Shown here in pieces: positions 3,469 to 28,100 of a stretch of 30,088 nt of DNA (its first letter is position 1; each line of letters starts with the position of its first letter). Made by a program: the position numbers and the translations under genes. The notes beneath the pieces are model-generated. The model did not search any database. It had not been told where the DNA came from and was given only the letters and a program-made list of their open reading frames with translations. The DNA is taken from the IMG/VR virus record IMGVR_UViG_3300030389_001204, positions 1 to 30,088 of that record; one strand, written 5' to 3'. The stretch is from a virus.

Positions 3469-5593
3469 AAATTTAATATTAAAAGTAAGTGAGAAAGGAG
3501 CAAAGAAAACTGCGAATGCCCTAAAAAGCGTAGGTAGTGCAGTAAAAGATGTAGGGGTAAAAGCTGGTATTGCAACTGCAGGTATTGGAGTATTGTCTGC
3601 AAAACTAGCAGGAGACTTTCAAAAAAGTCTTTTAGAGGTTAGTACACTTACTGGTGATTTTAGTGATGTAGCATTAAAAAAGATGAGCAGAGAATTAAGG
3701 CAAGTCGCTAGTGATTCAGGCCTTGCTCTTGGTTCTATTAGTAAAGCTAAATATGATATTGTCTCTGCTGGTTTTTCTAGTGCTGCAGAGTCAGCTGAAG
3801 TTTTAAGAGTATCTGCGCAATTGGCAGTTGGTGGCGTGACAAGTGCGGCAGAAGCAGCGGACTTACTCACTACATCATTAAATGCGATGGGATTAGACTT
3901 TACCAGTACTCAAAGAGTAGCTGATGAATTATTTACTACTGTCAGGCTAGGTAAGACCACAATGGGTGAATTATCTGCTACGCTAGGGCAAGTATTACCT
4001 TTTGCTAATGCTGCTGGTTTAAGCCTGTCTGGGGTGGGTGCAGCTATGGCTACACTAACAGCATCTGGTATATCAACTGCACAATCCGCTACTGCTTTGA
4101 GGTCAGCAATACAATCTCTACAAAGCCCAACTGACCAATCCAAAACTTTAATGAGGGATATGGGGATAGAAGTAAAAAGATTTGATGATGGCAGTATAGA
4201 TTTAATAAATACTGTAAAGCAGTTTCAAGGCTTAGATGCCGATACCATGAGAAAATTAATTCCTAGAATCGAGGGTATCCTAGCAATTCAAACTATGGCT
4301 CAAAACTTTACAACACTAAGCAGTAATGTAGAGCAGTTTGCAACCAATTCAGTAGGGGCATCTACAAAAGCTTTTCAGCAAATGGAATCGGCTTTTAATA
4401 CGCAGTTTGCTAAATTAAAAAACAATGTTCAAAGCATTATGATTACTATTGGGGATGTAGTTATTGAACAAATACAACCTTTTGTAGAAGATGCAAATGA
4501 AGAATTATCAGAACTTGGTAACATAGGTTTTGACCATATGGCAAAAGTAATAGGTGAGAATTTTAGTGTGGTTCTTGAAGCTTTAAATGTCACTATTTCT
4601 TTATTTATAGATTCAATTCAAAACAGAGTAACTCTTGCTGGAATGTTTATTAAAAAAGAGTTAGCAAGTTTGCTACCTGATTTTATTAGTGGCTCTGAAG
4701 ATTTACAAAAAGAATATGATGCTATGTCTGAAAAGATAACTAAAAGAAATGCTGATAATTTTGACATGGTTGCAAATCAATTATTATTTACTTTTGATTT
4801 TATAAAAGAAAAAGCAAAAGAATCTTCTGAAAATGAAATAGCAGAGATGGAAAAAACCAATCTTGCCAAAGCAGAATTAAGAACTGCTGATAATGAAAAT
4901 CTGCAAGAGAATTTACAAATCAAATCTGAAATAGAAAATGCAGATTCAGAAAGAGAAAAAGAATTATTGACTGTTAGAGGGTTAGCTCAAAAGCAATATT
5001 TTGATAAAGTTGGAGAACAAGTAAAAGAATTAAAAAATTTAGGAGTAGATGCTACACAAGCAGAAAAACATGGTGCAAAATTAAGAATGCAGTTTATGAG
5101 CAAAGAGTTGTCTGCTAAGACAAATCAAGCAGCTGGGTTTTTATCTCTTGCAAAACAAGCATCTGGTGTCAATAAAAACAATGCAAAACTTACGAAAGCA
5201 CTAGCAAAAGGCGAGGCTACTGTAAGAGCATTTGAAGCTGCAAATAAAACATTCGCAAAATTTGGAGGTTGGCCTACTGGCATAGTTCCTGCAGGTCTTG
5301 CTTTGGCTATTGGTATGGGTAATGTTGCCTCAATAGACGCTCAATCTTTTGCTGGTGGGGGTATAGTTCAAGGCATAGATACTGGGCAAGGTGATACAGT
5401 ACCAACTATGCTTACTCCTGGTGAGTTAATTTTAAATCAGGCTCAACAAGAAAATCTAGCTAGCAGTATGGGTAGTGTTGTAATAAATATTCAAGGTGAT
5501 TTTTTAGGTAGTGCAGAACAAGCTGACAAACTAGCTAATGTAATTGAAGATAGAGCAAGGTTAGGGTTTAATAGGATTTCTACTGATGCTTAG
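3461..5593 (+). CDS. Tail tape measure protein
   Basis: This 710-residue protein sets tail length and is threaded out during DNA ejection. The N-terminus is lysine-rich with a hydrophobic Ala/Gly segment. Residues about 45-330 match the TP901-type tape measure core: SLLEVSTLTGDFS, then Ala/Ser-rich helices such as SAAEAADLLTTSLNAMGLDF and a LRSAIQSLQSP stretch. The middle (about 400-600) is charged and coiled-coil-like. Near residue 630 comes a Gly-rich FAGGGIVQGI...VPTMLTPGELILN segment, typical of the C-terminal end of such proteins. It overlaps the chaperone fusion upstream and the tail-tip gene downstream by eight bases each. At this length the tail would be of moderate size. Confidence 0.88.
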   Translation: MAKNLILKVSEKGAKKTANALKSVGSAVKDVGVKAGIATAGIGVLSAKLAGDFQKSLLEVSTLTGDFSDVALKKMSRELRQVASDSGLALGSISKAKYDIVSAGFSSAAESAEVLRVSAQLAVGGVTSAAEAADLLTTSLNAMGLDFTSTQRVADELFTTVRLGKTTMGELSATLGQVLPFANAAGLSLSGVGAAMATLTASGISTAQSATALRSAIQSLQSPTDQSKTLMRDMGIEVKRFDDGSIDLINTVKQFQGLDADTMRKLIPRIEGILAIQTMAQNFTTLSSNVEQFATNSVGASTKAFQQMESAFNTQFAKLKNNVQSIMITIGDVVIEQIQPFVEDANEELSELGNIGFDHMAKVIGENFSVVLEALNVTISLFIDSIQNRVTLAGMFIKKELASLLPDFISGSEDLQKEYDAMSEKITKRNADNFDMVANQLLFTFDFIKEKAKESSENEIAEMEKTNLAKAELRTADNENLQENLQIKSEIENADSEREKELLTVRGLAQKQYFDKVGEQVKELKNLGVDATQAEKHGAKLRMQFMSKELSAKTNQAAGFLSLAKQASGVNKNNAKLTKALAKGEATVRAFEAANKTFAKFGGWPTGIVPAGLALAIGMGNVASIDAQSFAGGGIVQGIDTGQGDTVPTMLTPGELILNQAQQENLASSMGSVVINIQGDFLGSAEQADKLANVIEDRARLGFNRISTDA

Positions 5594-7742
5594 TTTCCCA
5601 ACTTCTTTGACAAATGAGATAGCTAGGGATGCAAGTGATTTAAAGTACCTTGTAAAATTAGAAAAAAGATTAATTGCCTCGCCTTACACCACCTCTTTTA
5701 TTTATTTCAGTAACGATGACTGCACTGTGTACGATGACGATGCTAGTGCAAATGTTGATGTATTAGGTTCTTTACAATCCGATATAAGAATATCAGAAAG
5801 AATTGATATTAAAACTCATGTTTCATCTGTTGGTGGCTTTTCAATAAAGTTAGTTGATTTAAACCACGCAAATGTATCTGATATATTTTTAACTCATGAT
5901 ATATTCAATAGGCCAGTAGAAATTTGGTTGTTAGATAAAACAAATAATACTAGCAATGGAAGTTTATTGTATAAAGGCATCTGTGGTGTACCTGTATATA
6001 ATCAAGATTCAATTAGCTTACCTATAGAAAATAGTACATTTAATGTGAATACAGAATTGGGTCAAGATAAAATTTCTGAAACTGATAAAGTAGTAGGTGA
6101 TGTTCCTAGCAAATCATTAGGAAAATCAAAGCCTATTGTTTATGGTGACCATGTTACAAATATAAATAATACTACAGTTGCTAATGCAAACTTTAGTCAA
6201 AGCACAAATTTAACCCCTTGTATCGATATGGGTGAGCATAGGAGTGGCACTTCAAGTTTTAGTAATTGGTATATTGCTGGTCATGAGTGTAAATCTATTG
6301 ATGAAATGTGGATAAATGATACTGACATAGGAAGCTTTACACAAATAAAAACCTTTACAACTGTTACAAATGATTCAACTAAAGCTGTTATTCAACACGA
6401 AACATTAGGAAATAGATATGCTTATGTCTACCCTAGCAGTACATTTATAGATAATCAATTAAATGGTGCTACAGTTACAAATGCTGATAATGTGCTAGAT
6501 TTTGATTTAACTACTTTTGCAACTTTATCTGCTCAAGATGTTGAAACTGAAGGTCAAATACAAAGAGCAGAATTAACTGCTCAATTTTCTGATGACACTT
6601 TTAGAATATCTGGAGGAGATTTTACCAACTCTAATATTGTACAATCAAAACTTTATGTACGTTTAAATTATTCTCATCAAGGTTCTACGGGAAATGAGGT
6701 GGTTCAAATATTTGATATGAATAGTTTTTTTGGTAGCAATGTAGACTTGAGAGGGTTTACTAATGACACTATTTTTAATGAAGTAACACCTACAAACACA
6801 AATATCCCTGGCCCTACAGTAAGGTTTAGAGTTCAAAGTGCTTTTGGAGGAGATATTTTTCCAACTAGGGTTTTAAAAATTTATGGTTTGTATTTAAGGG
6901 TTGAGTATATACCAATAAGCAGGGGCAATGTTTTTTTTGGTGGCACTGGTAGAAAAGATGATAGTTCAGGAACAGTTACAGGGTCAGCTAATTCTTTAAT
7001 TGAAAACCCTAGTCATATTGCAGAAGATATTGCAAGAAATTACATGGGGTTATCAACCAGCAATATAAATACATCATCTTTTGATAATGTCAATACAGAA
7101 CTTACTTCTAATTATAAATTATCTTTTTTTGTAAACTCTCCTATAAATTCTAAAAAATTATTAGAAAAAATAGGGTTTCAAGGTAAAAGTTTTTTTAGGT
7201 TTGATAGTCAAAATAAAATAAGTGCTGACACTTTTTTTGCATCTCCAAGTGTAGATATTGACAGTATAACCTTAGACCATATAATTAAAATAGGTTTTTC
7301 AAAGATAAGTTTAAAAGACTTAGTGAATAAATTATTTTTAAACTATTTTTTTGACGGAACGGATAATACAAAACAATTAACAAGGTCTTATGATACAGCA
7401 AACACAGGAAGCCAAGCTAGGTACAATGTTGTTAATGAAAAAGTAATTAATGCTGATTTTATAAAAACAGATACAACTGCTGGTTTATTAGCTGACCACT
7501 GGGTAAAAGATTCATCAGATTCGTTTTGGTCATTACCAAGAAATATTGTTGATGTAGATTTCATTACAAGTAGAAAAAATTTTCTATCATTAGAATTAGC
7601 AGATGTAATACAATTTGACCATAATTCATTAGATTCTTATAAAAAAATATATGGTGCTAGTTTTAATGGTAAAAAATTTAAAATAATAAGTATTACAAAA
7701 AACTTAAAGAGTGTTAAAGTAAAAGCAATAGAGGTTCCGTAA
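5586..7742 (+). CDS. Putative tail-tip / baseplate hub protein
   Basis: A 718-residue, beta-rich, Asn/Ser/Thr-rich protein encoded directly after the tape measure gene, where siphophages encode distal tail and hub proteins. The first 120 residues (DLKYLVKLEKRL, then IDIKTHVSSVGGFSIKLVDL and FNRPVEIWLLD) look like a strand-rich domain shared by many tail-tip proteins. Around residues 160-200 a GKSKPIVYGDHV segment follows. The central 200 residues are beta-rich, and the last 200 include KKLLEKIGFQGKSFFRF and a closing KKFKIISITKNLKSVKVKAI, consistent with a hub-like C-terminal domain. No catalytic motif for a wall hydrolase was seen. It overlaps its neighbours at both ends. Confidence 0.55.
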   Translation: MLSFPTSLTNEIARDASDLKYLVKLEKRLIASPYTTSFIYFSNDDCTVYDDDASANVDVLGSLQSDIRISERIDIKTHVSSVGGFSIKLVDLNHANVSDIFLTHDIFNRPVEIWLLDKTNNTSNGSLLYKGICGVPVYNQDSISLPIENSTFNVNTELGQDKISETDKVVGDVPSKSLGKSKPIVYGDHVTNINNTTVANANFSQSTNLTPCIDMGEHRSGTSSFSNWYIAGHECKSIDEMWINDTDIGSFTQIKTFTTVTNDSTKAVIQHETLGNRYAYVYPSSTFIDNQLNGATVTNADNVLDFDLTTFATLSAQDVETEGQIQRAELTAQFSDDTFRISGGDFTNSNIVQSKLYVRLNYSHQGSTGNEVVQIFDMNSFFGSNVDLRGFTNDTIFNEVTPTNTNIPGPTVRFRVQSAFGGDIFPTRVLKIYGLYLRVEYIPISRGNVFFGGTGRKDDSSGTVTGSANSLIENPSHIAEDIARNYMGLSTSNINTSSFDNVNTELTSNYKLSFFVNSPINSKKLLEKIGFQGKSFFRFDSQNKISADTFFASPSVDIDSITLDHIIKIGFSKISLKDLVNKLFLNYFFDGTDNTKQLTRSYDTANTGSQARYNVVNEKVINADFIKTDTTAGLLADHWVKDSSDSFWSLPRNIVDVDFITSRKNFLSLELADVIQFDHNSLDSYKKIYGASFNGKKFKIISITKNLKSVKVKAIEVP

Positions 7743-8491
7743 TGGCAAAAGCATTTTATTATGATTCAGGTGGTTTATTAGAGGCAACAGTAAATGATGG
7801 AACATTGTCCAGCAATGCTTTTAGCGATGCCGATACAATGACAAACGAAGAAAGGTTAATTGACCAATCTATTGCAACAGCAGTATCTGGGTTTGGAAAT
7901 ACAGATGCTTTTAAAATTACTTTTGCAACTTCAACAGCACTTGATTTTATAGCATTATATTTTAGTGCAGCTGAAACAGACAACCTTAGCTTTCAAAGAG
8001 AAGTAGCAACAAATACTTATGCTTCCGTCTCAAACATTTCAACTGACTTTGTAGTTGGTTGGAATATCTCAGAGTTTAGTTCTGCGTCTTCAGAAAATTG
8101 GATAGTATCGCCAACAGGAGACATTGCAAATCTTACTGAAATAATTACGGGAAGCAAATTAGAGTTTGAAATAAATCCAGATATTGGCATTTTAGAATCA
8201 GATAATTTTGGTGTGGACTTAACAAAAAGTTTAGGGGGTGTGCAATACGCACTTAAAAGACACAACCCTATACAAACTATTACATTAAGCTTTTCAAGCA
8301 TTTCTAATACATTTAAAACAAGTTTACAGTCAATGCAAGACGATGTTCAAAACTTTAAAAAGTTCATATACAGTGAAAACGGAACCACTGGACCATTTCA
8401 CTATGTAAGATTAGAAAAGCCAATGCAGTTTAAAGAAGTATCAAGTCAAAGGTTTTCTGTTAATATTTCTTTAATTGAACAATTATCATAA
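7742..8491 (+). CDS. Putative tail-tip protein, last gene of the tail operon
   Basis: A 249-residue, mostly beta protein with few Cys or Trp residues. Its start overlaps the preceding stop (TAATG), and it is the last gene before a 216-base non-coding region. The C-terminal half (GVQYALKRHNPIQTITLSFSS and LQSMQDDVQNFKKF) alternates strands with one helix, ending RFSVNISLIEQL. Size and position would fit a distal tail or receptor-proximal tip protein. No family could be named from the sequence alone. Confidence 0.5.
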   Translation: MAKAFYYDSGGLLEATVNDGTLSSNAFSDADTMTNEERLIDQSIATAVSGFGNTDAFKITFATSTALDFIALYFSAAETDNLSFQREVATNTYASVSNISTDFVVGWNISEFSSASSENWIVSPTGDIANLTEIITGSKLEFEINPDIGILESDNFGVDLTKSLGGVQYALKRHNPIQTITLSFSSISNTFKTSLQSMQDDVQNFKKFIYSENGTTGPFHYVRLEKPMQFKEVSSQRFSVNISLIEQLS

Positions 8492-8507
8492 TTAAATTTC
8501 TACCCTA

Positions 8508-8577
8508 AAACCAGGGATGAACAGGGCGATTGCTCCGTTGTTCGTCCTTATTCACAACTATAAAGCATCCCTGGTTT
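8508..8577 (+). terminator. Structured RNA element, probable terminator or attenuator after the tail genes
   Basis: A perfect 12-base inverted repeat, AAACCAGGGATG at 8508-8519 and CATCCCTGGTTT at 8566-8577, encloses 46 bases. Inside, GGATGAACA (8515-8523) can pair with TGTTCGTCC (8539-8547) with one G-U pair, so the inner and outer stems compete for 8515-8519. The segment is visibly richer in G and C than its surroundings. A run of five T follows at 8588-8592, ten bases after the outer stem, so it is not a textbook intrinsic terminator. It sits where the late tail operon ends and the early operon begins. Confidence 0.55.
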
Positions 8578-8590
8578 CCCTCTATTGTTT

Positions 8591-8644
8591 TTAGATAAGT
8601 CTTAGATAAGACTAAAAAAAATAAAAAAAAGTCTTTTACTTATC
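8591..8644. repeat. Direct and inverted repeats in front of the early promoter
   Basis: TTAGATAAG occurs at 8591-8599 and again at 8602-8610, an 11-base period. The same bases form inverted repeats: AGTCTTA (8598-8604) with TAAGACT (8607-8613), AAGACT (8608-8613) with AGTCTT (8630-8635) across a poly-A spacer, and GATAAGT (8594-8600) with ACTTATC (8638-8644). The right arms overlap the proposed -35 box. Repressor operators or an A-tract upstream activator of the promoter are both possible. Confidence 0.45.
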
Positions 8645-8662
8645 AAACAGTATTGCTAATAT
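8635..8662 (+). promoter_or_regulatory. Predicted promoter of the early operon
   Basis: TTTACT (8635-8640) and TAATAT (8657-8662) are separated by 16 bases, resembling a sigma-70 -35/-10 pair. Transcription would start near CGTGAATA (8667-8674), giving a leader of about 40 bases that ends in AAACACGGAG (8692-8701), the ribosome-binding site of the first gene. The same -35 box, CGTGAATA and AAACACGGAG recur before the amidoligase gene at 14914-14980, which strengthens both predictions. Confidence 0.6.
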
Positions 8663-8707
8663 ACATCGTGAATAAAATAAAAATACTAACTAAACACGGA
8701 GTTTAAA

Positions 8708-8995
8708 ATGGAAAAACAATATCCTTATCAAATACTACTAGAGGGTGCACCAGTTTGTGATGATTTGCAAGATGATTTCGATTGTTGTCTTGCTGATGGA
8801 GAAATGAGTTGGTGGGAAGAAAAAACACCACTTCAGGTCATAAGTGCTTTGCAAGAAATACATGACAGATATGAAGAAGGATCTGGCTGGACTTGGGCAG
8901 AAGATGAAAATGCAAAAGAACATCAAAAGCCAATTAAGAAGGTTCTTGCTCATGTTAAGAGAAGATATAAGAAATACTATAAAGGGGGTAAGTAG
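8708..8995 (+). CDS. Hypothetical protein, first gene of the early operon
   Basis: A 95-residue protein with an acidic, Cys- and Trp-containing N-terminal half (DDLQDDFDCCLADGEMSWW) and a strongly basic C-terminus (KKVLAHVKRRYKKYYKGGK). The middle predicts a helix, LQVISALQEIHDRYEE. The start is set by the GGAG site at 8698-8701, which belongs to the conserved promoter leader. As the first gene expressed it could act on the host, but no family is recognised. Confidence 0.7.
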   Translation: MEKQYPYQILLEGAPVCDDLQDDFDCCLADGEMSWWEEKTPLQVISALQEIHDRYEEGSGWTWAEDENAKEHQKPIKKVLAHVKRRYKKYYKGGK

Positions 8996-10621: not shown

Positions 10622-11260
10622 ATGGCTTTTTTACAACTAAGAAAAAAACATAATTTATCAACAAAAGATAATGACAGAGGTATTGATGTGCAGTTATTAG
10701 AGGACCCAAGTGACTGCAACCCTAAAGTCAATAAGTACAAGAAAACTGAATTTGAAGTTAATTGCACAAACATAGGCGGTGACTATACCACAGAGGATTC
10801 TGGTTCTTTCATACTATATCACGATAAGCCTTTTAAATTAACTTGTACTGAATACTTAATGAGAAAGTTATATCCTTTTTCTAAGGGTGATTGCATTAAA
10901 ATAGTTATGTACCAAGACGGAGAAAACATAAACTATCATATTAAACCAAGTAAGATAGAGTGGGACAAAGAGCCTGAAGAGATAAAGACTGTAAATGAAT
11001 CTAAGTATGGATATGATTCTGTAAAAGAAAGAGATACAGACAGAAGATTAGACATATTATGGGGTATGGCTTTTAATAATGCCACAAGACTAGCTGCATC
11101 AATTCCATTACATGAAGATGAAGGTGATATAAAAAGCAGAGTGCAGACCATAGAAAGTATAATGCCAAAAATGTTTAAGATAGCACAAGGGCTTGATTCT
11201 GTATTAAAAAAGCAAGATGCTGAAAAAAGAAAGGATGACACAAGTGACTTACCATTCTAA
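10622..11260 (+). CDS. Putative single-stranded DNA-binding protein
   Basis: A 212-residue protein whose last residues, DDTSDLPF, match the acidic, Phe-terminated tip that SSB proteins and T7 gp2.5 use to recruit replication partners. Residues 1-115 look like a strand-rich, OB-like domain (FEVNCTNIGG, SFILYHDKPFKLTCTEYLM, DCIKIVMYQDG). The rest is helical and charged, with an ILWGMAFNNATRLAAS helix. It has the strongest ribosome-binding site of the early operon, fitting a protein needed in quantity. An HNH nuclease and a replication-initiator candidate follow. The role is inferred from the tail and context. Confidence 0.6.
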   Translation: MAFLQLRKKHNLSTKDNDRGIDVQLLEDPSDCNPKVNKYKKTEFEVNCTNIGGDYTTEDSGSFILYHDKPFKLTCTEYLMRKLYPFSKGDCIKIVMYQDGENINYHIKPSKIEWDKEPEEIKTVNESKYGYDSVKERDTDRRLDILWGMAFNNATRLAASIPLHEDEGDIKSRVQTIESIMPKMFKIAQGLDSVLKKQDAEKRKDDTSDLPF

Positions 11261-11384
11261 AAAAGAACACAAAGCAAGTATAAGAATGATTGTAAGTTTT
11301 TATAAATCATTATTAAGAAAAGGTATTATAAAAGAAGGTAGTAGTGCTTACAGTAGAATGATAGAATTAAAAACCAAGATTTAA
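11235..11384 (+). CDS. Small basic hypothetical protein
   Basis: A 49-residue protein starting with the ATG at 11235, inside the end of the SSB-like gene (26-base overlap) and preceded by an AAAGG site. Its TAA shares a base with the HNH gene start (TAATG). The product is basic and helical (HSKKEHKASIRMIVSFYKSL, then SRMIELKTKI). It fills an otherwise empty 123-base gap exactly, which supports it. Function unknown; DNA or RNA binding is possible from its charge. Confidence 0.55.
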   Translation: MTQVTYHSKKEHKASIRMIVSFYKSLLRKGIIKEGSSAYSRMIELKTKI

Positions 11385-11743
11385 TGACAAAAGCACAAAA
11401 AACTAAACTTCATAAATTGGTTCGAGAGTACGTCATCCTTAGGGATAAGATGTGTTTGAGGTGTGGAAAAAACCAAAACCTTCATGCTTCACACATCTAT
11501 CCTAGGGGTAAATATCCGAAGATGCAATTTAATACTGATAATGTTAAGGCTCTTTGTTTAGGCTGTCATCTTTATTGGTGGCATAAACACCCTATAGAGG
11601 CTAAAGAATGGGCTGAAAAAGCATTAGGAGTAGATAGATTAGATAAATTAAAAAAACAGGCAAATACGATAAATAAAACACCCTGGAGTTTTAAAGAAAT
11701 ACAAAGTGAATTAAAAGATAAAATAGGAGAGATAAATGGCTAA
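11384..11743 (+). CDS. HNH endonuclease, NinG-like
   Basis: A 119-residue protein with the layout of small phage HNH nucleases. A zinc pair C24-x2-C27 is followed by the catalytic SH motif (LHASHIYPRGKYP, His37), Asn53 in NTDNVKALC, and a second pair C58-x2-C61 followed by His62. This ASH...R......F....NV..LC..C pattern resembles NinG/Rap-type recombination nucleases. Here it sits in a replication block between SSB-like and initiator-like genes, fitting recombination or branched-DNA processing. As terminase is far away, a packaging HNH role is less likely. It overlaps the next gene by 8 bases. Confidence 0.72.
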   Translation: MTKAQKTKLHKLVREYVILRDKMCLRCGKNQNLHASHIYPRGKYPKMQFNTDNVKALCLGCHLYWWHKHPIEAKEWAEKALGVDRLDKLKKQANTINKTPWSFKEIQSELKDKIGEING

Positions 11744-12782: not shown

Positions 12783-13160
12783 ATGAGTAAAAAGTTTCAA
12801 GATACTGAAGAGGGTAAAAAGCAAGAAACACTATTTGATAATATGGATAACTTCGATTGGTGGAAAAAAGAATGGAAAGATATGCCAGAATTTATTATGA
12901 AAGATTTATCATCAGAGCATTCTGTTATAGTCCACTTTGAAAGTACAAAAGATAGGGATGAGTTTGCAGAATTAGTCGGTCAGAATATATATTCAACTAC
13001 AAAATCAATATGGTATCCTAAGGTCAAAGTAGAAAGATTTATGAATAAAAGATACATTGATGAAAAAAAACTTAGTGAATGTTGTGGCTCTGAAATGTTG
13101 CCGTATGAGACACCAATATGCTCTAGCTGTAAAGACCATTGCGATACAGAGGAAGAATAA
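12783..13160 (+). CDS. Conserved-type phage protein with C-terminal zinc knuckle
   Basis: A 125-residue protein in two parts. Residues 22-85 form a compact domain (NFDWWKKEWKDMPEF, then SVIVHFESTKDRDEFAELVGQ and TKSIWYPKV) of a type I associate with phage genes near ParB-like and base-modification enzymes; this association is from memory and unverified. The tail has Cys100, Cys101, Cys113, Cys116, His119 and Cys120, matching the 30-residue protein at 10271-10363. It is coupled by TAATG to the glycosyltransferase gene, so the two may work together. Function unknown. Confidence 0.65.
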   Translation: MSKKFQDTEEGKKQETLFDNMDNFDWWKKEWKDMPEFIMKDLSSEHSVIVHFESTKDRDEFAELVGQNIYSTTKSIWYPKVKVERFMNKRYIDEKKLSECCGSEMLPYETPICSSCKDHCDTEEE

Positions 13161-13996
13161 TGAATCCTAGGTATCCAGTTTATATAATATCAAAAGGCAG
13201 ATGGGAAAAAAGAAAGACAAGTAGAACATTAGAAAGAATGAATGTTCCCTATAAAATTGTAATAGAGCCACAAGAGTATGATAATTATGCGGCAGTAATT
13301 GATCCTAAAAAGATACTTGTAACTCCATTTAGTAATCTTGGCCAGGGTTCGATACCGTCAAGAAATTTTGTATGGGAGCATAGTATAAGTATTGGAGCAA
13401 AAAGACATTGGATATTAGATGATAATCTATTCAACTTTTATAGAGTCAATAACAATCTACCTGTTCCTGTTTCTTCTGGCACAATATTTAGATGCGCTGA
13501 AGATTTTGTAGACAGATATACTAATGTTGCAATATCAGGCTTTGAGTATTTTATGTTCATGCCTAGAAAAACAAAGAAAGCACCATACAGAATGAATACA
13601 AGGGTGTACAGTTGTATTCTAATTCAAAATGATATACCATACAGATGGCGTGGAAGGTATAATGAAGATACTGACTTGTCACTAAGAGCATTAAAAGATG
13701 GTTGGTGCACTATTCTGTTTCAAGCATTTCTATGTGATAAAACAACAACAATGACAGATACTGGAGGAAATACAGAGGACTTGTATTTTATTGATGATGG
13801 TAGATTAAAAATGGCAAAGTCATTAGAAGAGCAACACCCTGATGTTACGAAGGTTACAAGAAAATGGGGTAGATGGCAACATCATGTAGATTACAGACCA
13901 TTCAGATTTAATAAACTTAATAAAATTAAAGGCTTAGACATTCCAGATAGAGTAAACAATTATGGAATGAAACTCATACAACTGGAGGACAAATGA
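13160..13996 (+). CDS. TET-associated-type glycosyltransferase (TAGT), candidate DNA base glycosyltransferase
   Basis: A 278-residue GT-A-like enzyme. It starts YPVYIISKGRW and has SNLGQGSIPSRNFVWEHS (residues 58-75), HWILDDN with Asp87-Asp88-Asn89, expected to bind the metal and sugar nucleotide, and GRYNEDTDLSLRAL with Glu169, Asp170 and Asp172 for catalysis. These match the TAGT family described from phages, where it is predicted to glycosylate oxidised pyrimidines in DNA. The ATG at 13160 shares a base with the upstream stop and follows a GAGGAAG site, so a TTG 21 bases upstream is unlikely. A sugar epimerase follows directly. No base hydroxylase or hydroxymethylase is recognised in the window. 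Confidence 0.72.
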   Translation: MNPRYPVYIISKGRWEKRKTSRTLERMNVPYKIVIEPQEYDNYAAVIDPKKILVTPFSNLGQGSIPSRNFVWEHSISIGAKRHWILDDNLFNFYRVNNNLPVPVSSGTIFRCAEDFVDRYTNVAISGFEYFMFMPRKTKKAPYRMNTRVYSCILIQNDIPYRWRGRYNEDTDLSLRALKDGWCTILFQAFLCDKTTTMTDTGGNTEDLYFIDDGRLKMAKSLEEQHPDVTKVTRKWGRWQHHVDYRPFRFNKLNKIKGLDIPDRVNNYGMKLIQLEDK

Positions 13997-14862
13997 ATGT
14001 ATTGGTAACAGGAGGTGCTGGATTTATAGGGCATCACTTAATTAAAAAACTATTAAACAAGAATTATAATGTAGTGTCTCTTGATAACTATAGCACTGGT
14101 AAAAAAGAAAATGAAGTAGATGGATGTGAATACATATATACAGATTTATATGAAACAGATATGAATGAATTTTATATGTATTCAGATTATAAGTTTAAAA
14201 TGTGCTTTCATCTTGCTGCACTTGCTCGGATACAGCCGTCATTTATAAATCCTGCTATGTCTATTAAAAATAATTATTTATCAACTTTAAATGTAGCAGA
14301 TTTTTGCCGTATTAATGCAGTACCAATAATATATGCTGGTAGTAGTTCTATACATCACGACTCACTTAGAAGTCCTTATGCATATTCTAAGGGAGCTGGA
14401 GAGCAATTGCTTGATTTATATACTAAGTTATTTGATTTAAACTGCTCAACAAGTAGGTTCTATAATGTATATGGTAAAAACCAGATAGAGTCTGGAGATT
14501 ATGCAACTGTAATTGGAATATTTGAAAAGCAATACAGAGAGAAAAAGCCACTGACAATAGTAGGAGATGGAAATCAAAGGAGAGACTTTACATATGTAGG
14601 CGATATAGTCGATGCATTAATATCTTCAGCACATTACTTATTAGATAAAAAAAGAGATAATGTTACATTTGAATTAGGTACTGGAGATAATTGGTCAATA
14701 AATCAAGTAGCAACAATGTTCGGCAAAGATTATCCTGTAAAGTATTTAGATGTAAGATTAGGCGAATATCCAGAGACAAGAGCAGACTATAGTAAGGCTT
14801 TTGAACTATTAAACTGGAAAGCAAAAATAAAATTAAATAAATATATTGAGTCAGTTTTATGA
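13993..14862 (+). CDS. NDP-sugar epimerase/dehydratase (extended SDR, GalE-like)
   Basis: A 289-residue extended short-chain dehydrogenase/reductase. It has the NAD-binding TGGAGFIG motif (residues 6-13), HLAA (73-76), catalytic Ser in AGSSS (115-119), the Tyr129-x3-Lys133 pair in YAYSK, then RFYNVYG and RRDFTYVGDI, which are typical of enzymes acting on UDP- or dTDP-sugars. Such enzymes alter sugar nucleotides used as donors. Its ATGA overlap with the glycosyltransferase suggests it makes that enzyme's donor. Exact sugar specificity cannot be read. It is the last gene before the second promoter. Confidence 0.85.
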   Translation: MNVLVTGGAGFIGHHLIKKLLNKNYNVVSLDNYSTGKKENEVDGCEYIYTDLYETDMNEFYMYSDYKFKMCFHLAALARIQPSFINPAMSIKNNYLSTLNVADFCRINAVPIIYAGSSSIHHDSLRSPYAYSKGAGEQLLDLYTKLFDLNCSTSRFYNVYGKNQIESGDYATVIGIFEKQYREKKPLTIVGDGNQRRDFTYVGDIVDALISSAHYLLDKKRDNVTFELGTGDNWSINQVATMFGKDYPVKYLDVRLGEYPETRADYSKAFELLNWKAKIKLNKYIESVL

Positions 14863-14875
14863 CGACAAAAGCTAT

Positions 14876-14942
14876 AAGAGTTTAAAAAGAGTTAAAAAAG
14901 TGTTAGAAAACTCTTTACTTTTATGTTGAGGCGTGTTATGTT
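14876..14942 (+). promoter_or_regulatory. Predicted promoter of the amidoligase operon with an overlapping inverted repeat
   Basis: TTTACT (14914-14919) and TATGTT (14937-14942) are 17 bases apart. An inverted repeat AAGAGTTT (14876-14883) / AAACTCTT (14908-14915) with an A-rich spacer overlaps the -35 box, as in the early promoter at 8635. Downstream, CGTGAATA (14948-14955) and AAACACGGAG (14971-14980) repeat the early leader. The repeat could be an operator, or a weak terminator for the preceding epimerase gene. Confidence 0.6.
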
Positions 14943-14987
14943 CTGTACGTGAATATTAATACAAACAAACAAACACGGAGAAATAAC

Positions 14988-16010
14988 ATGAAAGGTACTT
15001 TTAACAACGAGAGAGGTTTCGGAGTCGAAATAGAATTTGCAAGACCAAGAAACATAACTAAGCAAGATATTGTAACGGCTATCAATCTTTACTCTAGTAC
15101 ACCATCAGTGCATTGCGAAGTAGAAGGTTACAATCATATAACAAGACCACATTGGAAACTTACAAGTGATAGTTCAGTAGATGGCCATAGAGGATATGTA
15201 GGTGGTAATGAGTTAGTCAGTCCTATACTTTACGGGCAAGATGGTAAAGAGCAATTAAGAGCTGTACTTCAAGTTCTTAATGACTTAGAGTGCGAAGTAA
15301 ATGTATCATGCGGAATACATACACACCACGATGTAACTGGCGTAATGGTTCAAGAAGAAGAAGTTGCAGCAAAGTTCTTAAATAATCTTATTAAGTTTGT
15401 CGCAAAATTCGAGCATTTTATTTACAGACTTGTATCAGCTTCAAGACTTAGAAGAAGTTGGTGCTTACCTGTTCGCAGAATCTTTGCAAATATGCATCGT
15501 ACTGAATTTGCTAGTGTACAACAAACTAGAAATGATGCGACACTTAAAGCAATCGCAAAGCGTGTATTCAAAAACGTAAAAGATGGTGTAAAGTATAAGT
15601 ACAGTCAAGTTGGTTCAGGTACTGGCTCAAGCTACGCACCAAACTTTCAGCCAACAAGATACTGCGGACTTAATCTTAGAAACATCTGGACACGCGGTTC
15701 TGTTGAATTTCGTTATATGCAAGGGTCATTGAACTTCGATAAAATCTGGAGCTGGATTGTATTTACTCAAGCAATCATCAACGTTGTAGAGTCTGCTAAT
15801 TCAGTAGCTTTTAAAAACGTACCAACAACTGAAGCAGGTTTTTTCTACTTCAGAAAAGCACTTGGATTTATCGGTAGTAAAGACAGAGATGGAGATGTAA
15901 AATTTGCTAACAAAGAAATACAAAAGAGATTTAAAGCAATGACTACATATGAGCAAGAGTCAAGAAGAAGTAGTGCTCAAGATTATCATTTAACAAGGGC
16001 TGGTATTTAA
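14988..16010 (+). CDS. Putative amidoligase (COOH-NH2 ligase family)
   Basis: A 340-residue protein matching the phage and bacterial amidoligase_2 pattern of the glutamine-synthetase-like fold. It has FGVEIEF (residues 11-17, with Glu14 and Glu16 as metal ligands), HWKLTSDSSVDG...GNELVSP (about 55-79), CGIHTHHDV (108-115), and VEFRYMQGSLN further on. Such enzymes use ATP to join a carboxyl to an amine. The ATG at 14988 has a GGAG site seven bases upstream; a GTG at 14949 lies at the predicted transcription start and is not credible. Base use here is visibly less AT-rich than in the neighbouring epimerase gene. It heads an operon with a glutamine amidotransferase and a GGCT-like protein. Confidence 0.78.
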   Translation: MKGTFNNERGFGVEIEFARPRNITKQDIVTAINLYSSTPSVHCEVEGYNHITRPHWKLTSDSSVDGHRGYVGGNELVSPILYGQDGKEQLRAVLQVLNDLECEVNVSCGIHTHHDVTGVMVQEEEVAAKFLNNLIKFVAKFEHFIYRLVSASRLRRSWCLPVRRIFANMHRTEFASVQQTRNDATLKAIAKRVFKNVKDGVKYKYSQVGSGTGSSYAPNFQPTRYCGLNLRNIWTRGSVEFRYMQGSLNFDKIWSWIVFTQAIINVVESANSVAFKNVPTTEAGFFYFRKALGFIGSKDRDGDVKFANKEIQKRFKAMTTYEQESRRSSAQDYHLTRAGI

Positions 16011-16017
16011 CCAGCCC
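15997..16017 (+). other. Hairpin over the amidoligase stop codon
   Basis: GGGCTGGT (15997-16004) and ACCAGCCC (16010-16017) form a perfect eight-base stem with loop ATTTA, and the TAA stop straddles the loop and the second arm. No T run follows, so an intrinsic terminator is unlikely. It may protect the 3' end after processing or lower read-through into the glutamine amidotransferase gene, whose ribosome-binding site lies just downstream. Confidence 0.55.
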
Positions 16018-16038
16018 ATTAGGGAAAGGAGAGAAATT

Positions 16039-16929
16039 ATGTGTGGACTAGCAGGAGTAGTTTTAAAAAAGAAAGATAGAACGGATAATGAACTATCTTT
16101 AATCACGAAAGGGTTTACAAGAATGTTGAAAAAAGCAGATATGCGAGGTGGCCACGCTACTGGATTTGCAGTGATAGATAGATTTGGTGGCTACATACTT
16201 ATGAAAAGACCTCAAGATGCATATAAGTTTTGTTCTAGTAAAGACACTGAGTCTGCTCTAAGTATTACAAACAATGATGTGACTTGCATACTTGGTCACA
16301 CTAGATACGCTACACTTGGCACACCAAAGATAAATAAAAACAATCATCCTATCCGTACTGGAAATACTATAGGTACTCATAACGGTTCTATTCATAATCA
16401 TAAAGAACTATTTAAAAAGTACAATATGGAAAGACACGCTCAGGTTGATTCAGAGGCAATATTTAGACTGTACGAAACATCTGAAAGTGCAAAGGACTTT
16501 TCAGATAACAGGTTACCCGATGTCCGTGGTCGGGTAGCCATCGTATGGTCGGACTTAGAGTACCCTGAGTATGTATATATGGTCAAAGGTAATAATCCAT
16601 TAGAGATGGCTTTTATTCCTGGATTGGACATTTACATATATGGTAGCACTACTGAGATACTGAAAGCGTCAAATTGGCTACATTACAAGCCAATCAAGAT
16701 TGATGCGGATACTATGCTCAGAGTAAATACAAAGACACTTAAAATCAGAACTAAATCTATTACACATAAAAAGCCATTTAGTTTTAAAGGTCAATCTTAC
16801 AATAAAAAGATTGGTGCATATGTAGATACAGTTCCTCAATTCGTTCCAAGATATTCTTGGAAAGAGCAACAAGAGTTATTTAAAAAAGTAAAAGCCAGTG
16901 ATGGTTCAACTATAAGGAGAGTAAAATAA
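16039..16929 (+). CDS. Class II glutamine amidotransferase (Ntn hydrolase)
   Basis: A 296-residue protein that starts MCGLAGV, with Cys2 as the expected N-terminal nucleophile once Met is removed. It has RGGHATG (36-42), LGHTRYAT (85-92), GTHNGSI (112-118) and VDSEAIF (136-142), the glutamine-binding and oxyanion features of GlmS/PurF-type glutaminase domains. It releases ammonia from glutamine. There is no sugar isomerase or synthetase domain, so ammonia must go to a separate partner, most likely the upstream amidoligase or its product. An AAAGGAGAG site precedes the ATG, and the stop overlaps the next start (TAATG). Confidence 0.85.
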   Translation: MCGLAGVVLKKKDRTDNELSLITKGFTRMLKKADMRGGHATGFAVIDRFGGYILMKRPQDAYKFCSSKDTESALSITNNDVTCILGHTRYATLGTPKINKNNHPIRTGNTIGTHNGSIHNHKELFKKYNMERHAQVDSEAIFRLYETSESAKDFSDNRLPDVRGRVAIVWSDLEYPEYVYMVKGNNPLEMAFIPGLDIYIYGSTTEILKASNWLHYKPIKIDADTMLRVNTKTLKIRTKSITHKKPFSFKGQSYNKKIGAYVDTVPQFVPRYSWKEQQELFKKVKASDGSTIRRVK

Positions 16930-17555
16930 TGAAATTGTTTGTATATGGTACATTAAAAGCTGGTGGAGGTAATCATGGGTTTCTTACAGAAAGAAACAGT
17001 AAGTTTGTTTGTCATCATGAGATGCATGGATTTGAACTTATTGATTTAGGCTATGGATTTCCATATATGATGATTGGCAACGGTAGTGTACTTGGCGAGG
17101 TGTATGAAATAGACCGAGAGACCCTTGTTAATATAGATTCATTAGAAGGACATCCATTTCATTACAAAAGATACTTAACTAATTTTAATGGACAAGTTGC
17201 AGAAATGTATTACTATCTTTCAAGATTTGACATTTTGCCAACAAAAGCTAAAATTCTAAAAGACGGATATTGGCCAATAGACAATCAAAAAATAGATGTA
17301 ATTATTGACGGCAGAGAATATCGTGACAAAGCACATAAGATAGTATTCAATATGAGATTCTTTGATGGCGATAGAACACCTACAAATCGCAGTTATATGA
17401 AATTAGTGAGTAAACGTAGTCATATGAAATTAAATACCGAAAATGAAGAGATTTTTGTAAGGCAATGTATTACTCGTGGAATATACGAAGGACTTAATCC
17501 TTTTATCTATGATGAAAAGTTAGTAAATTCAAACGAATTAAAAATAACGGAGTAA
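16929..17555 (+). CDS. Gamma-glutamylcyclotransferase-like protein (AIG2/GGCT fold) with a C-terminal extension
   Basis: A 208-residue protein. Residues 1-110 match the GGCT/AIG2 fold: LFVYGTLKAGGGNH at the N-terminus with the YGTL loop (6-9), GEVYEID (56-62), and DSLEGHPFHYKR where Glu73 is the expected general acid/base. Members cleave gamma-glutamyl amines to 5-oxoproline. The last 100 residues are an unusual extension without a recognised domain and contain a 9-residue tandem repeat (RSYMKLVSK, RSHMKLNTE). It is coupled to the amidotransferase by TAATG, so it likely trims or recycles a gamma-glutamyl product of the cassette. Confidence 0.78.
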   Translation: MKLFVYGTLKAGGGNHGFLTERNSKFVCHHEMHGFELIDLGYGFPYMMIGNGSVLGEVYEIDRETLVNIDSLEGHPFHYKRYLTNFNGQVAEMYYYLSRFDILPTKAKILKDGYWPIDNQKIDVIIDGREYRDKAHKIVFNMRFFDGDRTPTNRSYMKLVSKRSHMKLNTENEEIFVRQCITRGIYEGLNPFIYDEKLVNSNELKITE

Positions 17556-17557
17556 TC

Positions 17558-18028
17558 ATGAATATATTTGTACTAAGTAATCATCCGACTACAGCTGCAA
17601 GAATGCAACACGACAAGCACGTTGTAAAGATGGTACTAGAATCAACTCAGATGCTTTGTAGTGCTTTTGAGCCAAAACATAAGCCACCATACAAGCGTGC
17701 ATACTTTAATCACCCCTGTACTATATGGACAAGAACAAGTAAAGAAAACTATGAATGGTTATTATTACACGCCCTGTCTTTATGTACAGAATACACATAT
17801 AGGTATGGAAAGACTCACGCATCAGAAAAAGTTATAGAATGGTGCTGGAATAATTACGAATCATTAATTGACTTTCCAGAAGCAGGTATGACCAAACACG
17901 CTACTGCTATGCCAAATCAATACAAGACTGATGACGCAGTAGAATCTTATATAGGTTACTACATAGGAGAAAAGCTAAACAACGCTAAATGGACAAGAAG
18001 AAAGCAACCCGATATATTTAAATGTTAG
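17558..18028 (+). CDS. Conserved-type phage protein of unknown function, His-rich
   Basis: A 156-residue protein with many likely functional residues: MNIFVLSNHP at the start, DKHVVKMVLESTQML, FNHPCTIWTRTSKENYEWL, EYTYRYGKTHAS, and near the end HATAMPNQYK and YIGYYIGEKL. The clustered His, Asp, Lys, Cys and Trp suggest an enzyme. I recall similar proteins in other marine phages annotated only as hypothetical. It lies three bases after the GGCT-like gene with a CGGAG site and closes the amidoligase operon, so it probably shares that pathway. No reaction can be named. Confidence 0.65.
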   Translation: MNIFVLSNHPTTAARMQHDKHVVKMVLESTQMLCSAFEPKHKPPYKRAYFNHPCTIWTRTSKENYEWLLLHALSLCTEYTYRYGKTHASEKVIEWCWNNYESLIDFPEAGMTKHATAMPNQYKTDDAVESYIGYYIGEKLNNAKWTRRKQPDIFKC

Positions 18029-24834: not shown

Positions 24835-25179
24835 ATGGCAGACTTACACACTTATTCTGTACAAGAATCACTAAATACAACTGTTGGAGGTACATGGACA
24901 GTAGCCTCGGCAGGAACCGCTGGAAGTTCAGCAGACGTAAATAATACAACTCACAAATTATTAGCAAGTAGTTCTGGAACAATTGGAGTTCATTCGGCAG
25001 TAGAGATTTATTTCAACTTTACTACATCAGAAACAAATGTAAATGCTAGTAATGATTTAATACTACCAAAAAATACACTAACATTTTTGACAGTGCCGAG
25101 AGGTTTTGGCAACACAATATATTTCAATTATAATTCTACAAGTACCACAACTGGTGCTGTAAGAATAGTGGAGGTATAA
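24835..25179 (+). CDS. Small beta-rich virion protein, possible head decoration or fibre-linked protein
   Basis: A 114-residue protein rich in Thr, Ser, Asn and Gly with alternating short strands (GTWTVASAGTAG, AVEIYFNFTTSET, LTFLTVPRGFG, TIYFNYNSTS). It has no cysteine and few charges, as in decoration proteins and other external virion parts. It lies between capsid genes and the tail fibre gene, and its stop shares a base with the fibre start (TAATG). Exact role unknown. Confidence 0.55.
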   Translation: MADLHTYSVQESLNTTVGGTWTVASAGTAGSSADVNNTTHKLLASSSGTIGVHSAVEIYFNFTTSETNVNASNDLILPKNTLTFLTVPRGFGNTIYFNYNSTSTTTGAVRIVEV

Positions 25180-28100
25180 TGCAAAGTTCAATGTTAAAAG
25201 CTATTGTTGAAGATTTTGGCAATGGTGGTACAATAGATGGCGATTTAGTAGTATCTGGTGATTTAACTGTATCAGGCGGTGGCTCATTAAGTTTTGATGA
25301 GATTATAGAAGGTACACAGCAAATAAAAGTAACCAGTACAACTGCATTGCTAGTTGAGAAAGCTGATGGAACAGATGTATTCACAGTAGATACAACTAAC
25401 TCAGCAGTAGAGGTTGGTGGTCATTTAACCTTACCAGATGCAAGTGGTTCTGGTGGGGTTTTAAAACTTGGTGCAAGTGAAGATATACAAATATACCATG
25501 ATGGTAGCAATTCATATCTTGATCATTTAAACACTGGTAACTTAAACATAAGAAGTTTAAGGCATGGTGGTGATATAAAATTTCATACTGAAGCAAGTGA
25601 TGGCACTCAACATTCAATATTAACTCTTTCTAATGATAGTTCTGCTACTTTTTCTGGAGACGTAACTGTATCTAAATCATCCGATGGTGGCGATTCATCA
25701 CTTACTATTAATAACTCAGCATCTCACGGCTCTACTGATGAAACTGCATCTTTAAAATTTCAACAAGCTGGATATACTGGTGGTAAAATAGTTTCAAATA
25801 GAGCTTTTAATTATTCTTCTGCTGGTAATAGAGATAGCACATTACAGTTTTATACTTCTCAAGATGCTACAGACACTTTAGCTATGACCATAGATGCCAA
25901 TCAAAACGTTGGTATAGGAGATGCAAGCCCCGATTATAAATTAGATGTCGAAACTACAGCTAATTCAGATGTAACAGTAGCAAATTTTCAAAGTGCAATA
26001 GATGCTAATGGAGAACATTCTATAATACGAGTTGGTCATGGTAGTAAAGCCGCTTATATGGGGTTATTATTAAACTCATCAGATACTGCATACTTTGGTA
26101 TTGATGACAACCCAGATGATGGCAATGGAATATATGTAAATGAGTCAGCTAGTGTTGGTATCGGAACGAAAAACCCCAATGTAAAAAATCACATTTTTGG
26201 TGGTAGTGCAAGTCAAGAAAACATATTATTAAAAGTTCAATCAAATGCTGTAACCAATGATGGAAGTCTTAGTACATCAATATTACTTGCAAATTCTACT
26301 GGCTTAGACTCTACTCACGGAGCAAAGATACAAGCAATTAGGACTGGCTCTGGAACAGATGATTTAGTATTTCATACATTTAACTCAAGTCTAATAGAAG
26401 CAATGCGTATAGACTCAAGCCAAAATGTTGGTATAGGTTCATCGCCTATAGTTAGGTTAGGTCAAAAACTTTCAACGGCTACAAGTGCTAATTATGGTGG
26501 TGCTTCTTTAAATACATACTCCACTGACAATGGTCATTCTTCAGTATTGGATTTTAATAAAAGTGGTAACGCTACTATTGGTTCACATACAGCAGTAGCT
26601 GATGATGAAGATTTAGGATATATAATATTTAGAGGCTCAGATGGAGTAGAATTTCTTGATGCTTGTTATATAAGAGCAAATGTAGATGGTGCGGTTACTG
26701 GTGGTGGTACAAATGATATGCCGGGTCGTCTAACTTTTTGGACAACAGCAGATGGTAGCTCATCTCCAACTGAAAGAATGAGAATTGATTCATCAGGCAA
26801 GGTCGGGATAGCTGGAAATATATCTTTAAATAAATCATCAGCCAATCAATACATATTAAAAAATACTGGTGGTAGTTTAAGATTAAAACACGAAGGCACA
26901 AGTGCTGGCGATGACATAATACTTGAGTTAAGTGATGGTGGTAAACAACACATATTTGACCACGATGGTTCGTCTACCTTTGCTGGTGCAATTACTTCTG
27001 GTGGTAATGTAAACATTCCCGCTGGAAATCTTTTGTATTTAGATGGTGGCACAGATACATATATATATCAAGAAACAGATAATAAAATTTCTTTCGCTAC
27101 TAATTCTGGTGTTAGATTGTCTATTGACAACAGTTCTGCTACTTTTTCTGGTATTTTAAATGTATCTGGAGCTGGTTTAAAGATTACTGGTGCAAACACA
27201 GCTCATTTAGCATCTTCATTAGTTTTTGGTCAAGACACATCAGCTTTATCTCAAATTCGTGCTTATGGTGCTGATGATTCAACTGCTGGTACTCTTGAAT
27301 TTAGAATGACCAGTAGTGCTGGGGCAGTTAATCAAGGTGTAATGAAACTTGATGTCAACTCCCGAATCTCGCTTACAAATAATGATGCTGGTGGTAGCGG
27401 TGGTTCAGATGGTTTAAGCGCAAATACAATCTTTGGATATTTGGCAGGTCAGGACATCGCTTCAGGTGGTGTGGATAACACCTATTTCGGACACAAAGCA
27501 GGCTCAAATAACGCTACTGGCGATGACAACACCTTTGTCGGTTCAAATGCGGGTAAAGGTTCACATGGAAATAGCCATAGTAGCAATGTTGGCGTAGGCT
27601 CAGATGCTTTATTAGCTGTTAGTACAGGTAGTTATAACGCAGTAATGGGTAATGCTGCAGCAAAAGCTATGACTGACGGACATAATAACATAGCTATTGG
27701 AAATCAAGCTTTAATGACATCTACAAGTGCTGGTATATGTGTTGTAATTGGTGATGATGCCATGAAAAATGGTAATGCGACACAAGATGGTACGATTGCT
27801 ATCGGTGGTTCTGCTCTTTACGCATTGACAACTGGAGCTGGAAATACGGCAGTTGGTCATCAAGCCTTAGATGCTACTGCCACTGGGCAGTACAATACTG
27901 CTGTTGGATTTGAAGCATTGACTTCTTTACCAGACGGAGGAGACCAAAATACTGCCATAGGATGGAAGGCTCTTCATAGTGCTACAAGTTCCGCTTGTGA
28001 TAATTTAACCGCACTGGGTTATAAAGCTGGGTTTCAAATAAGCACTGGTTTTAACAATACTTTCATAGGTGCAAATGTTGATGCAAATACTGGAAATTTT

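Follow-up and report, generated by a model that had tools for sequence, protein, structure and literature searches.

Amidoligase cassettes have turned up repeatedly in phages of very different kinds, and since 2009 their function has been a matter of prediction only. In that year Iyer et al. are said to have described a phage peptide-bond or 'peptidoglycan modification' cassette. That phages would use such cassettes was mentioned as a prediction in a first-pass annotation of the DNA studied here; this prediction is published (PMC3890496, PMC10580990, PMC5498523, PMC6256558), and the published form also has an ATP-grasp protein and a second, phiEco32-like COOH-NH2 ligase (PMC3890496, PMC5498523). 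For the cassettes of phiEco32, RIO-1, PSA-HP1 and PhiM6, a role in peptidoglycan modification has been proposed (PMC5498523, PMC10580990, PMC6256558). We analysed a related locus in a 30,088-base IMG/VR virus record from a marine phage (IMGVR_UViG_3300030389_001204; the whole stretch is called the window below). In the window, the genes of an amidoligase, a stand-alone class-II glutamine amidotransferase (GATase) and a gamma-glutamylamine cyclotransferase (GGACT) are followed by a fourth gene (gene 4), and tailed-phage structural genes flank both sides. Our reading, to which we give even weight for and against, is that the first three genes form a self-promoted operon that edits amide and gamma-glutamyl bonds, and that gene 4 encodes a separate protein of DNA-repair type.

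A three-gene form of the phage amidoligase module

The four open reading frames called by the first-pass annotation are all real, with the coordinates that it gave (Table 1), and the Pfam matches of the first three were far above the cut-offs. Homologous modules were found in unrelated phages, namely the LUZ24-like phiIBB-PAA2, Zobellviridae and Arthrobacter phages. As in the window, the cassettes of phiEco32, the LUZ24-like phages, RIO-1 and PSA-HP1 have homologous Amidoligase_2, class-II GATase and GGCT/AIG2 genes next to each other and outside the structural module. Compared with the phiEco32/LUZ24 type, no ATP-grasp or COOH-NH2 ligase was found in the window form, its GATase is shorter, its GGACT protein has an extra C-terminal domain, and an exchange slot for DNA-modification genes adjoins it. 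Among 21 records of the lineage, none had an ATP-grasp match, whereas the positive control, phage Slicky01, matched at 2e-57; likewise, none had a PF14395 COOH-NH2 ligase above the cut-off, whereas four control phages matched. One sub-threshold PF14395 match was present in a 1,801-residue frame of the L220 record.

Judged by its gene content, the window operon is best described as a reduced (minimal) form of the known phage amidoligase-GATase-GGACT module. The Arthrobacter phages of the Salgado/Laroye group (gp97-gp99) also have three genes and no ATP-grasp or COOH-NH2 ligase, but their order is GGCT-amidoligase-GATase, the identity is ~30%, the GGCT has no extension and the host is actinobacterial. 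The OM43 phage MEP401, reported to have an amidoligase and a GATase, was rejected as a relative, its genome being different and of Zobellviridae type. As a minimal version reveals which partners are dispensable, this natural three-gene set is the simplest one for finding the substrate. New here are the extension of the GGACT protein, a lineage-specific promoter in two copies, the adjoining exchange slot and the constancy of the cassette while the cargo of that slot changes.

Linkage of the three genes across relatives

A single-sequence amidoligase search of IMG/VR returned one relative, and a three-row alignment was used instead. Viral contigs were scanned with alignments of the amidoligase, the GATase, GGACT and the extension, which yielded at least ~30 close relatives; these records are mostly fragments, and the scans returned the top-scoring loci only. 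For linkage counts, loci were clustered at 85% amidoligase identity, and at least 2.5 kb was required on both sides.

GATase and GGACT genes were near the amidoligase gene in all 13 lineage clusters with both flanks, usually in the order amidoligase-GATase-GGACT, with extra genes between GATase and GGACT in L027, L220 and L223. TAGT, a DNA-glycosyltransferase family, was near the amidoligase in 7 of these 13 clusters and gene 4 in 4 of them. The sister contig L002, whose amidoligase is 58% identical to that of the window, has TAGT and all four genes, arranged as in the window, but lacks the epimerase. Beyond the lineage, 24 distant clusters that had not been picked for their cassette (the selected cassettes L003-L006 and L008 were excluded) had a GGCT near the amidoligase in 12 cases and a GATase in 4. 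As a background, the best 80 gene-4 loci had an amidoligase plus GGCT within 5 kb in one case and a GATase in none. Amidoligase and GGCT are, therefore, long-standing partners, and within the lineage of the window the set of three genes is fixed. The four-gene cassette of the first-pass annotation thus holds for the ligase, the ammonia donor and the gamma-glutamyl-cleaving enzyme, which are constant and make up one unit, but not for gene 4.

Two further observations concern the surroundings of the GGACT gene. The extra material between GATase and GGACT in L027 includes a peptide deformylase gene with a SEC-C motif (11178-11723; PF01327, 4e-30). A phage integrase gene directly follows the GGACT gene in L220 (5421-6008, for which PF00589 was tested) and in L223 (5237-5824), which suggests a temperate branch of cassette carriers.

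A constant cassette beside an exchange slot

Directly 5' of the amidoligase gene, the relatives carry one of four types of cargo. The first, at 12 loci, is TAGT, in some cases accompanied by the epimerase, which is present also in L012, L013, L019 and L103. The second is a thymidylate-synthase family gene (PF00303) with a dUTPase and a DUF6378 gene (L014, whose upstream part was not covered, L015, L018/L025 and L090). A C5-cytosine methyltransferase with a second methyltransferase makes up the third (L016 and L023), and an N6/N4 methyltransferase the fourth (L020, L021 and L022). The cassette is kept in L027, L028, L220 and L223, where no DNA-modification cargo was identified in the slot. TAGT is missing from 13 of 24 cassette-bearing related records, and PF00303 was absent from the TAGT-bearing ones, these records being mostly fragments.

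The borders of the slot are sharp. In a nucleotide alignment, the homology of L012 and L016 extends to positions 6939/7090, is lost through the slot and resumes from 8890/8883. The same was seen for L012 against L020, L012 against L025 and L002 against L023, and the right border lies ~110 bp 5' of the amidoligase start. At least six changes of cargo type occur in a tree built from amidoligase and GATase; L012/L013 and L016 are on one supported branch with different cargo. Therefore, the cassette is constant, whereas the neighbouring DNA-modification genes are variable. These phages trade DNA-modification genes at one address and retain the amide operon, a pattern that separates two functions that reasoning from gene neighbourhood could have merged. 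The conserved flanks of the slot could also help to find more DNA-modification genes in metagenomes.

The TAGT of the window is 48% identical to a beta-glucosyl-HMC-alpha-glucosyltransferase of an Aeromonas phage and belongs to the same family (PF20691) as the enzyme of that name in T6-type phages, from which it differs as slot cargo that lies outside the amide operon. Solitary TAGTs have been reported in many phages (PMC13216743). Glycosylated DNA made by these upstream genes had been named by the first-pass annotation as one possible target of the cassette, a suggestion that is weakened now that TAGT is one of four interchangeable cargoes. Since the cassette stays constant through the cargo changes, a fixed role on glycosylated DNA is disfavoured, and any role on DNA would have to account for the indifference of the cassette to the type of DNA modification next to it.

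A broader form of this idea is that modified bases receive an amide- or amine-bearing group from the cassette, which would work together with whichever genes fill the slot. The closeness of a slot full of DNA-modification genes is in favour of it, as is a Mom-family gene located 3' of the cassette in L022; however, the cargoes include methyltransferases, which leave no obvious chemical handle, and no DNA-modification gene is annotated next to the cassettes of LUZ24-type and Arthrobacter phages. No Tet_JBP match was found in 24 records, in a search whose controls also gave no match, and a literature link between amidoligases and thymine hypermodification of the SP-15/PhiW-14 type was looked for and not found. 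We regard such hypermodification as improbable.

Several minor features of the slot and of other DNA-modification genes were also recorded. A small protein of family f19 is encoded before TAGT in almost every relative that bears TAGT, and relatives without TAGT lack it; it had no match in Pfam or in the phage collection, and is likely a TAGT partner. The slot of L010 holds two tandem, divergent TAGT genes (7085-8709). The Mom-family gene of L022 (4051-4860; PF25680, 2e-29), which is accompanied by a ParB_N gene at 3503-4054, is a second site of DNA-modification cargo. In L028, a ParB-like and a PAPS-reductase/DUF3440 gene form a pair on the minus strand (952-2719), several kb from the cassette.

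Predicted activities of the three proteins

The amidoligase gene starts at ATG 14988, with GGAG at ~14976-14980. All 81 distinct homologues kept residues H111, H113, R153, E240 and R242 of the protein; E14, E16 and E75 were kept in 77-80 of them. The GATase is built as a GlmS-type glutaminase domain plus ~85 residues. Its nucleophile, Cys2, was present in 43/43 homologues with an N-terminus, and R89, N115, G116 and D137 in 46/46; they include the Arg and the Asp with which GlmS binds free glutamine. As its profile matches the glutaminase domain of GlmS best (2e-23) and the hydrolase EgtC much more weakly (4e-4), the GATase is read as a glutaminase that would release ammonia from glutamine.

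In the cyclotransferase, Glu73, which aligned to the catalytic Glu of human GGACT, and Tyr79 were found in 51/51 homologues. The residues on whose retention the first-pass annotation relied (Cys2, Glu73 and the amidoligase glutamates) are, therefore, essentially invariant. An AF2 model of the protein (pLDDT 84, the confidence score of the model) had a GGACT fold in residues 1-115, and Foldseek matched this part to human GGACT (3juc) and Escherichia coli YtfP (1xhs) with probability 1.0. Both of them share the fold and the catalytic Glu of the N-terminal domain, and in sequence as well as fold the protein is nearest to the gamma-glutamylamine type. GGACT chemistry requires a gamma-glutamyl group whose alpha-amine is free, and the intact peptidoglycan stem offers none.

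The cyclotransferases of the lineage are 188-238 residues long, compared with the usual ~130, and the C-terminal extension that accounts for a separate beta-hairpin and three helices (residues ~120-190 of the model) is missing from both human GGACT and YtfP. Within these 70 residues, which have the motif DK-VF-MRFFDG---PTN--YM-LV--RS, lies the part of the protein with the highest conservation. When viral contigs were scanned with the extension only, it was always fused to GGACT or cut by the contig end (L211), and the contigs that bear it always had GATase and amidoligase genes where they were long enough. No relative was detected in bacterial genome contigs at the scan sensitivity used, no PHROGs match was better than 0.036, and Foldseek returned no PDB fold. 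We take the extension to be a new, conserved domain, not found in the other collections searched, which would serve to position a substrate or a partner. One could go further and see the operon as that part of a counter-defence locus which stays constant and brings its own promoter. DNA bases, a nucleotide or a defence-related small molecule would then carry a new modification, amide or aminoacyl, that complements the slot cargo, the extension directing the chemistry to its target; this we consider a long shot.

The PuuA/PuuD, EgtA/EgtC and butirosin BtrG pathways combine a glutamine-synthetase-fold ligase with an enzyme that removes the gamma-glutamyl group. By analogy, the amidoligase could add glutamate to a small amine (a polyamine, an amino acid or a thiol), and the GGACT, the GATase or both could remove it, so that the amine is protected and deprotected. 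The type of the cyclotransferase and the reach of the GATase profile as far as EgtC are consistent with the same ligase-plus-remover logic; however, the GATase is far nearer to GlmS, and no enzyme dedicated to modifying amines is a constant neighbour in the lineage. We judge this protection cycle to be rather unlikely.

Promoter of the operon

The first-pass annotation gave the operon its own promoter. A plain sigma-70 consensus scan was no better than chance (32 sites against 28.1 +/- 5.2 expected from shuffles) and was replaced by a comparative profile built from the relatives, with the window left out; this profile did place a site before the amidoligase gene, so the claim stands on comparative grounds. 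Two sites were found in the window (Table 1). Most relatives likewise have one copy where the upstream gene cluster begins and another before the amidoligase. No sites were found in the sequences of T4, MEP401 and phiIBB-PAA2.

The site before the amidoligase has operator-like AAGAGTT/AACTCTT repeats, with a -35 hexamer TTTACT (14914-14919) and, after 17 bp, a -10 hexamer TATGTT (14937-14942), both assigned by eye. As seen by eye also in the relatives, the stretch between slot and amidoligase is conserved, with AACYCTT/AAGRGTT repeats, hexamers resembling TTTACA (-35) and TATATT (-10) at a spacing of ~17 bp, and, downstream, an element similar to GTGAATA. Operator-like repeats are present in both copies in the window, and their arms seem to co-vary between relatives (ACTCTT/AAGAGT, ACCCTT/AAGGGT and AAGTCTT/AAGACT). 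Since the profile site before the amidoligase is paired with one at the upstream gene cluster, the operon appears to have a transcript of its own, which starts at a promoter type common to the upstream, probably early, genes. The homologous cassette of phage HP1 was reported to be expressed immediately upon infection (PMC7082346).

Table 1. Location of the amide operon and of neighbouring features in the window.
Feature	Coordinates	Strand	Basis
Amidoligase_2 (PF12224), 340 amino acids, glutamine-synthetase-like amide ligase	14988-16010	+	Pfam 7.5e-28
Stand-alone class-II GATase, GATase_6	16039-16929	+	Pfam 2e-16
GGACT/YtfP-type gamma-glutamylamine cyclotransferase (~1-115) fused to a lineage-specific C-terminal domain (~120-190)	16929-17555	+	Pfam GGACT 3.3e-19
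C-terminal extension of the GGACT protein, beta-beta-alpha-alpha-alpha	17288-17494	+	Conservation, model
Gene 4, PF03013 Pyr_excise family protein (phrog_624), neighbour outside the core	17558-18028	+	Pfam, PHROGs
Lineage-specific promoter of the operon	14875-14980	+	Profile from relatives, E 2.4e-8
Second copy of the operon-type promoter, where the upstream gene cluster begins (gene 8708-8995 onward)	8595-8711	+	Profile from relatives, E 9.4e-11
Small protein, family f19, accompanies TAGT in the exchange slot	12783-13160	+	Gene neighbourhoods of relatives
TAGT (PF20691), DNA-glycosyltransferase family, present slot cargo	13166-13996	+	Pfam 5.9e-43
NAD-dependent nucleotide-sugar epimerase/dehydratase, slot cargo with TAGT	13993-14862	+	Pfam Epimerase 1.5e-40

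Proposed function of the operon

In the mechanism that we propose, the GATase would free ammonia from glutamine, the amidoligase would use ATP and this ammonia, or another amine, to convert a carboxylate to an amide, and the GGACT domain would strip gamma-glutamyl groups from amines as 5-oxoproline. Together, the three would carry out amide and gamma-glutamyl editing during infection, probably early, on a target other than the phage DNA. Our best guess for the most economical class of substrate is a host peptide, a cell-wall precursor or a small amine.

Several points weigh against this proposal. No phage member of the module has a known substrate, and the need of GGACT for a free alpha-amine means that a wall target is not straightforward. 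L027 and L028, which have the cassette without slot cargo, are long branches. The contigs in general are fragments, so that DNA-modification genes may sit elsewhere. The class of the promoter is a putative one, assigned from its position, and the nearness of the operon to the DNA-modification slot hints at related functions.

The operon could instead amidate or cross-amidate wall precursors of the host and so block superinfection, as proposed for the larger cassette. This requires that the GGACT protein meet a free N-terminal gamma-glutamyl group, and the ATP-grasp and the second ligase of the proposed pathway are those not found in the lineage. The proposal is a published one, made for the four phages named at the outset, and bacteria do amidate wall precursors in a glutamine-dependent manner (MurT-GatD, PMC3267633), but no supporting experiment was found for any phage member. 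The lack of a recognisable endolysin, which the first-pass annotation took as a pointer to the wall, carries no weight in a record of no known completeness. Peptidoglycan editing seems to us doubtful, if still worth considering.

A role as a helper of nitrogen or amino-acid metabolism has been suggested for phage ZRK32. Phage-ZRK32, with an amidoligase, a glutamine amidotransferase, a glutathione synthase and a gamma-glutamylcyclotransferase, was reported to promote growth of its host with nitrate or ammonium, a link that is correlative (PMC10945688). We find such a role very unlikely for the window operon.

Gene 4 is a neighbour outside the core

Gene 4 had been left untyped by the first-pass annotation and counted as a member of the cassette, and neither view held. 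The protein matched PF03013 at 30.3 bits (cut-off 23; 5.5e-7) and phrog_624 at 2e-49, and PF03013 matched 57/58 of its homologues. The family occurs in 588 phage records, mainly of cyanophages and of Vibrio and Acinetobacter phages. It adjoins the cassette only in the sub-clade of the window (window, L002, L010 and L217) and in L023, and in L217 it has a different position, between TAGT and amidoligase. For 79 of the best 80 viral homologues, no amidoligase was found within the 5 kb searched.

T4 endonuclease V (DenV) matches PF03013 over the same span of the profile as gene 4. Glu28 of gene 4, invariant in 58/58 homologues, falls at the position of Glu23 of the T4 enzyme in a MAFFT alignment, although a direct comparison of the gene 4 profile with DenV was not significant; the nucleophile of the T4 enzyme is Thr2, whereas the gene 4 family has Asn2 in 58/58. 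Structure prediction gave a confident model (AF2, pLDDT 97) but no match to a solved structure: against the PDB, Foldseek found nothing better than E 1.7, and the solved fold of T4 endonuclease V was not matched. A sequence search of the PDB returned nothing usable, and a carbonic anhydrase identity was dismissed, as the matches to that enzyme were judged to be due to chance. Gene 4 encodes a PF03013-type protein with a possible role in DNA repair, separate from the core of the amide operon.

Homologues of gene 4 were also seen directly 5' of distant amidoligases in L060 (4119-4604), L061 (481-954) and L080 (8426-8911). In L060 and L080, a GGCT follows the amidoligase and no GATase was found. 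Gene 4 and amidoligases may co-locate more often than by chance.

Elsewhere in the window, positions 25179-28598 encode a long fibre-like protein whose C-terminal end is a Peptidase_S74 intramolecular chaperone domain.

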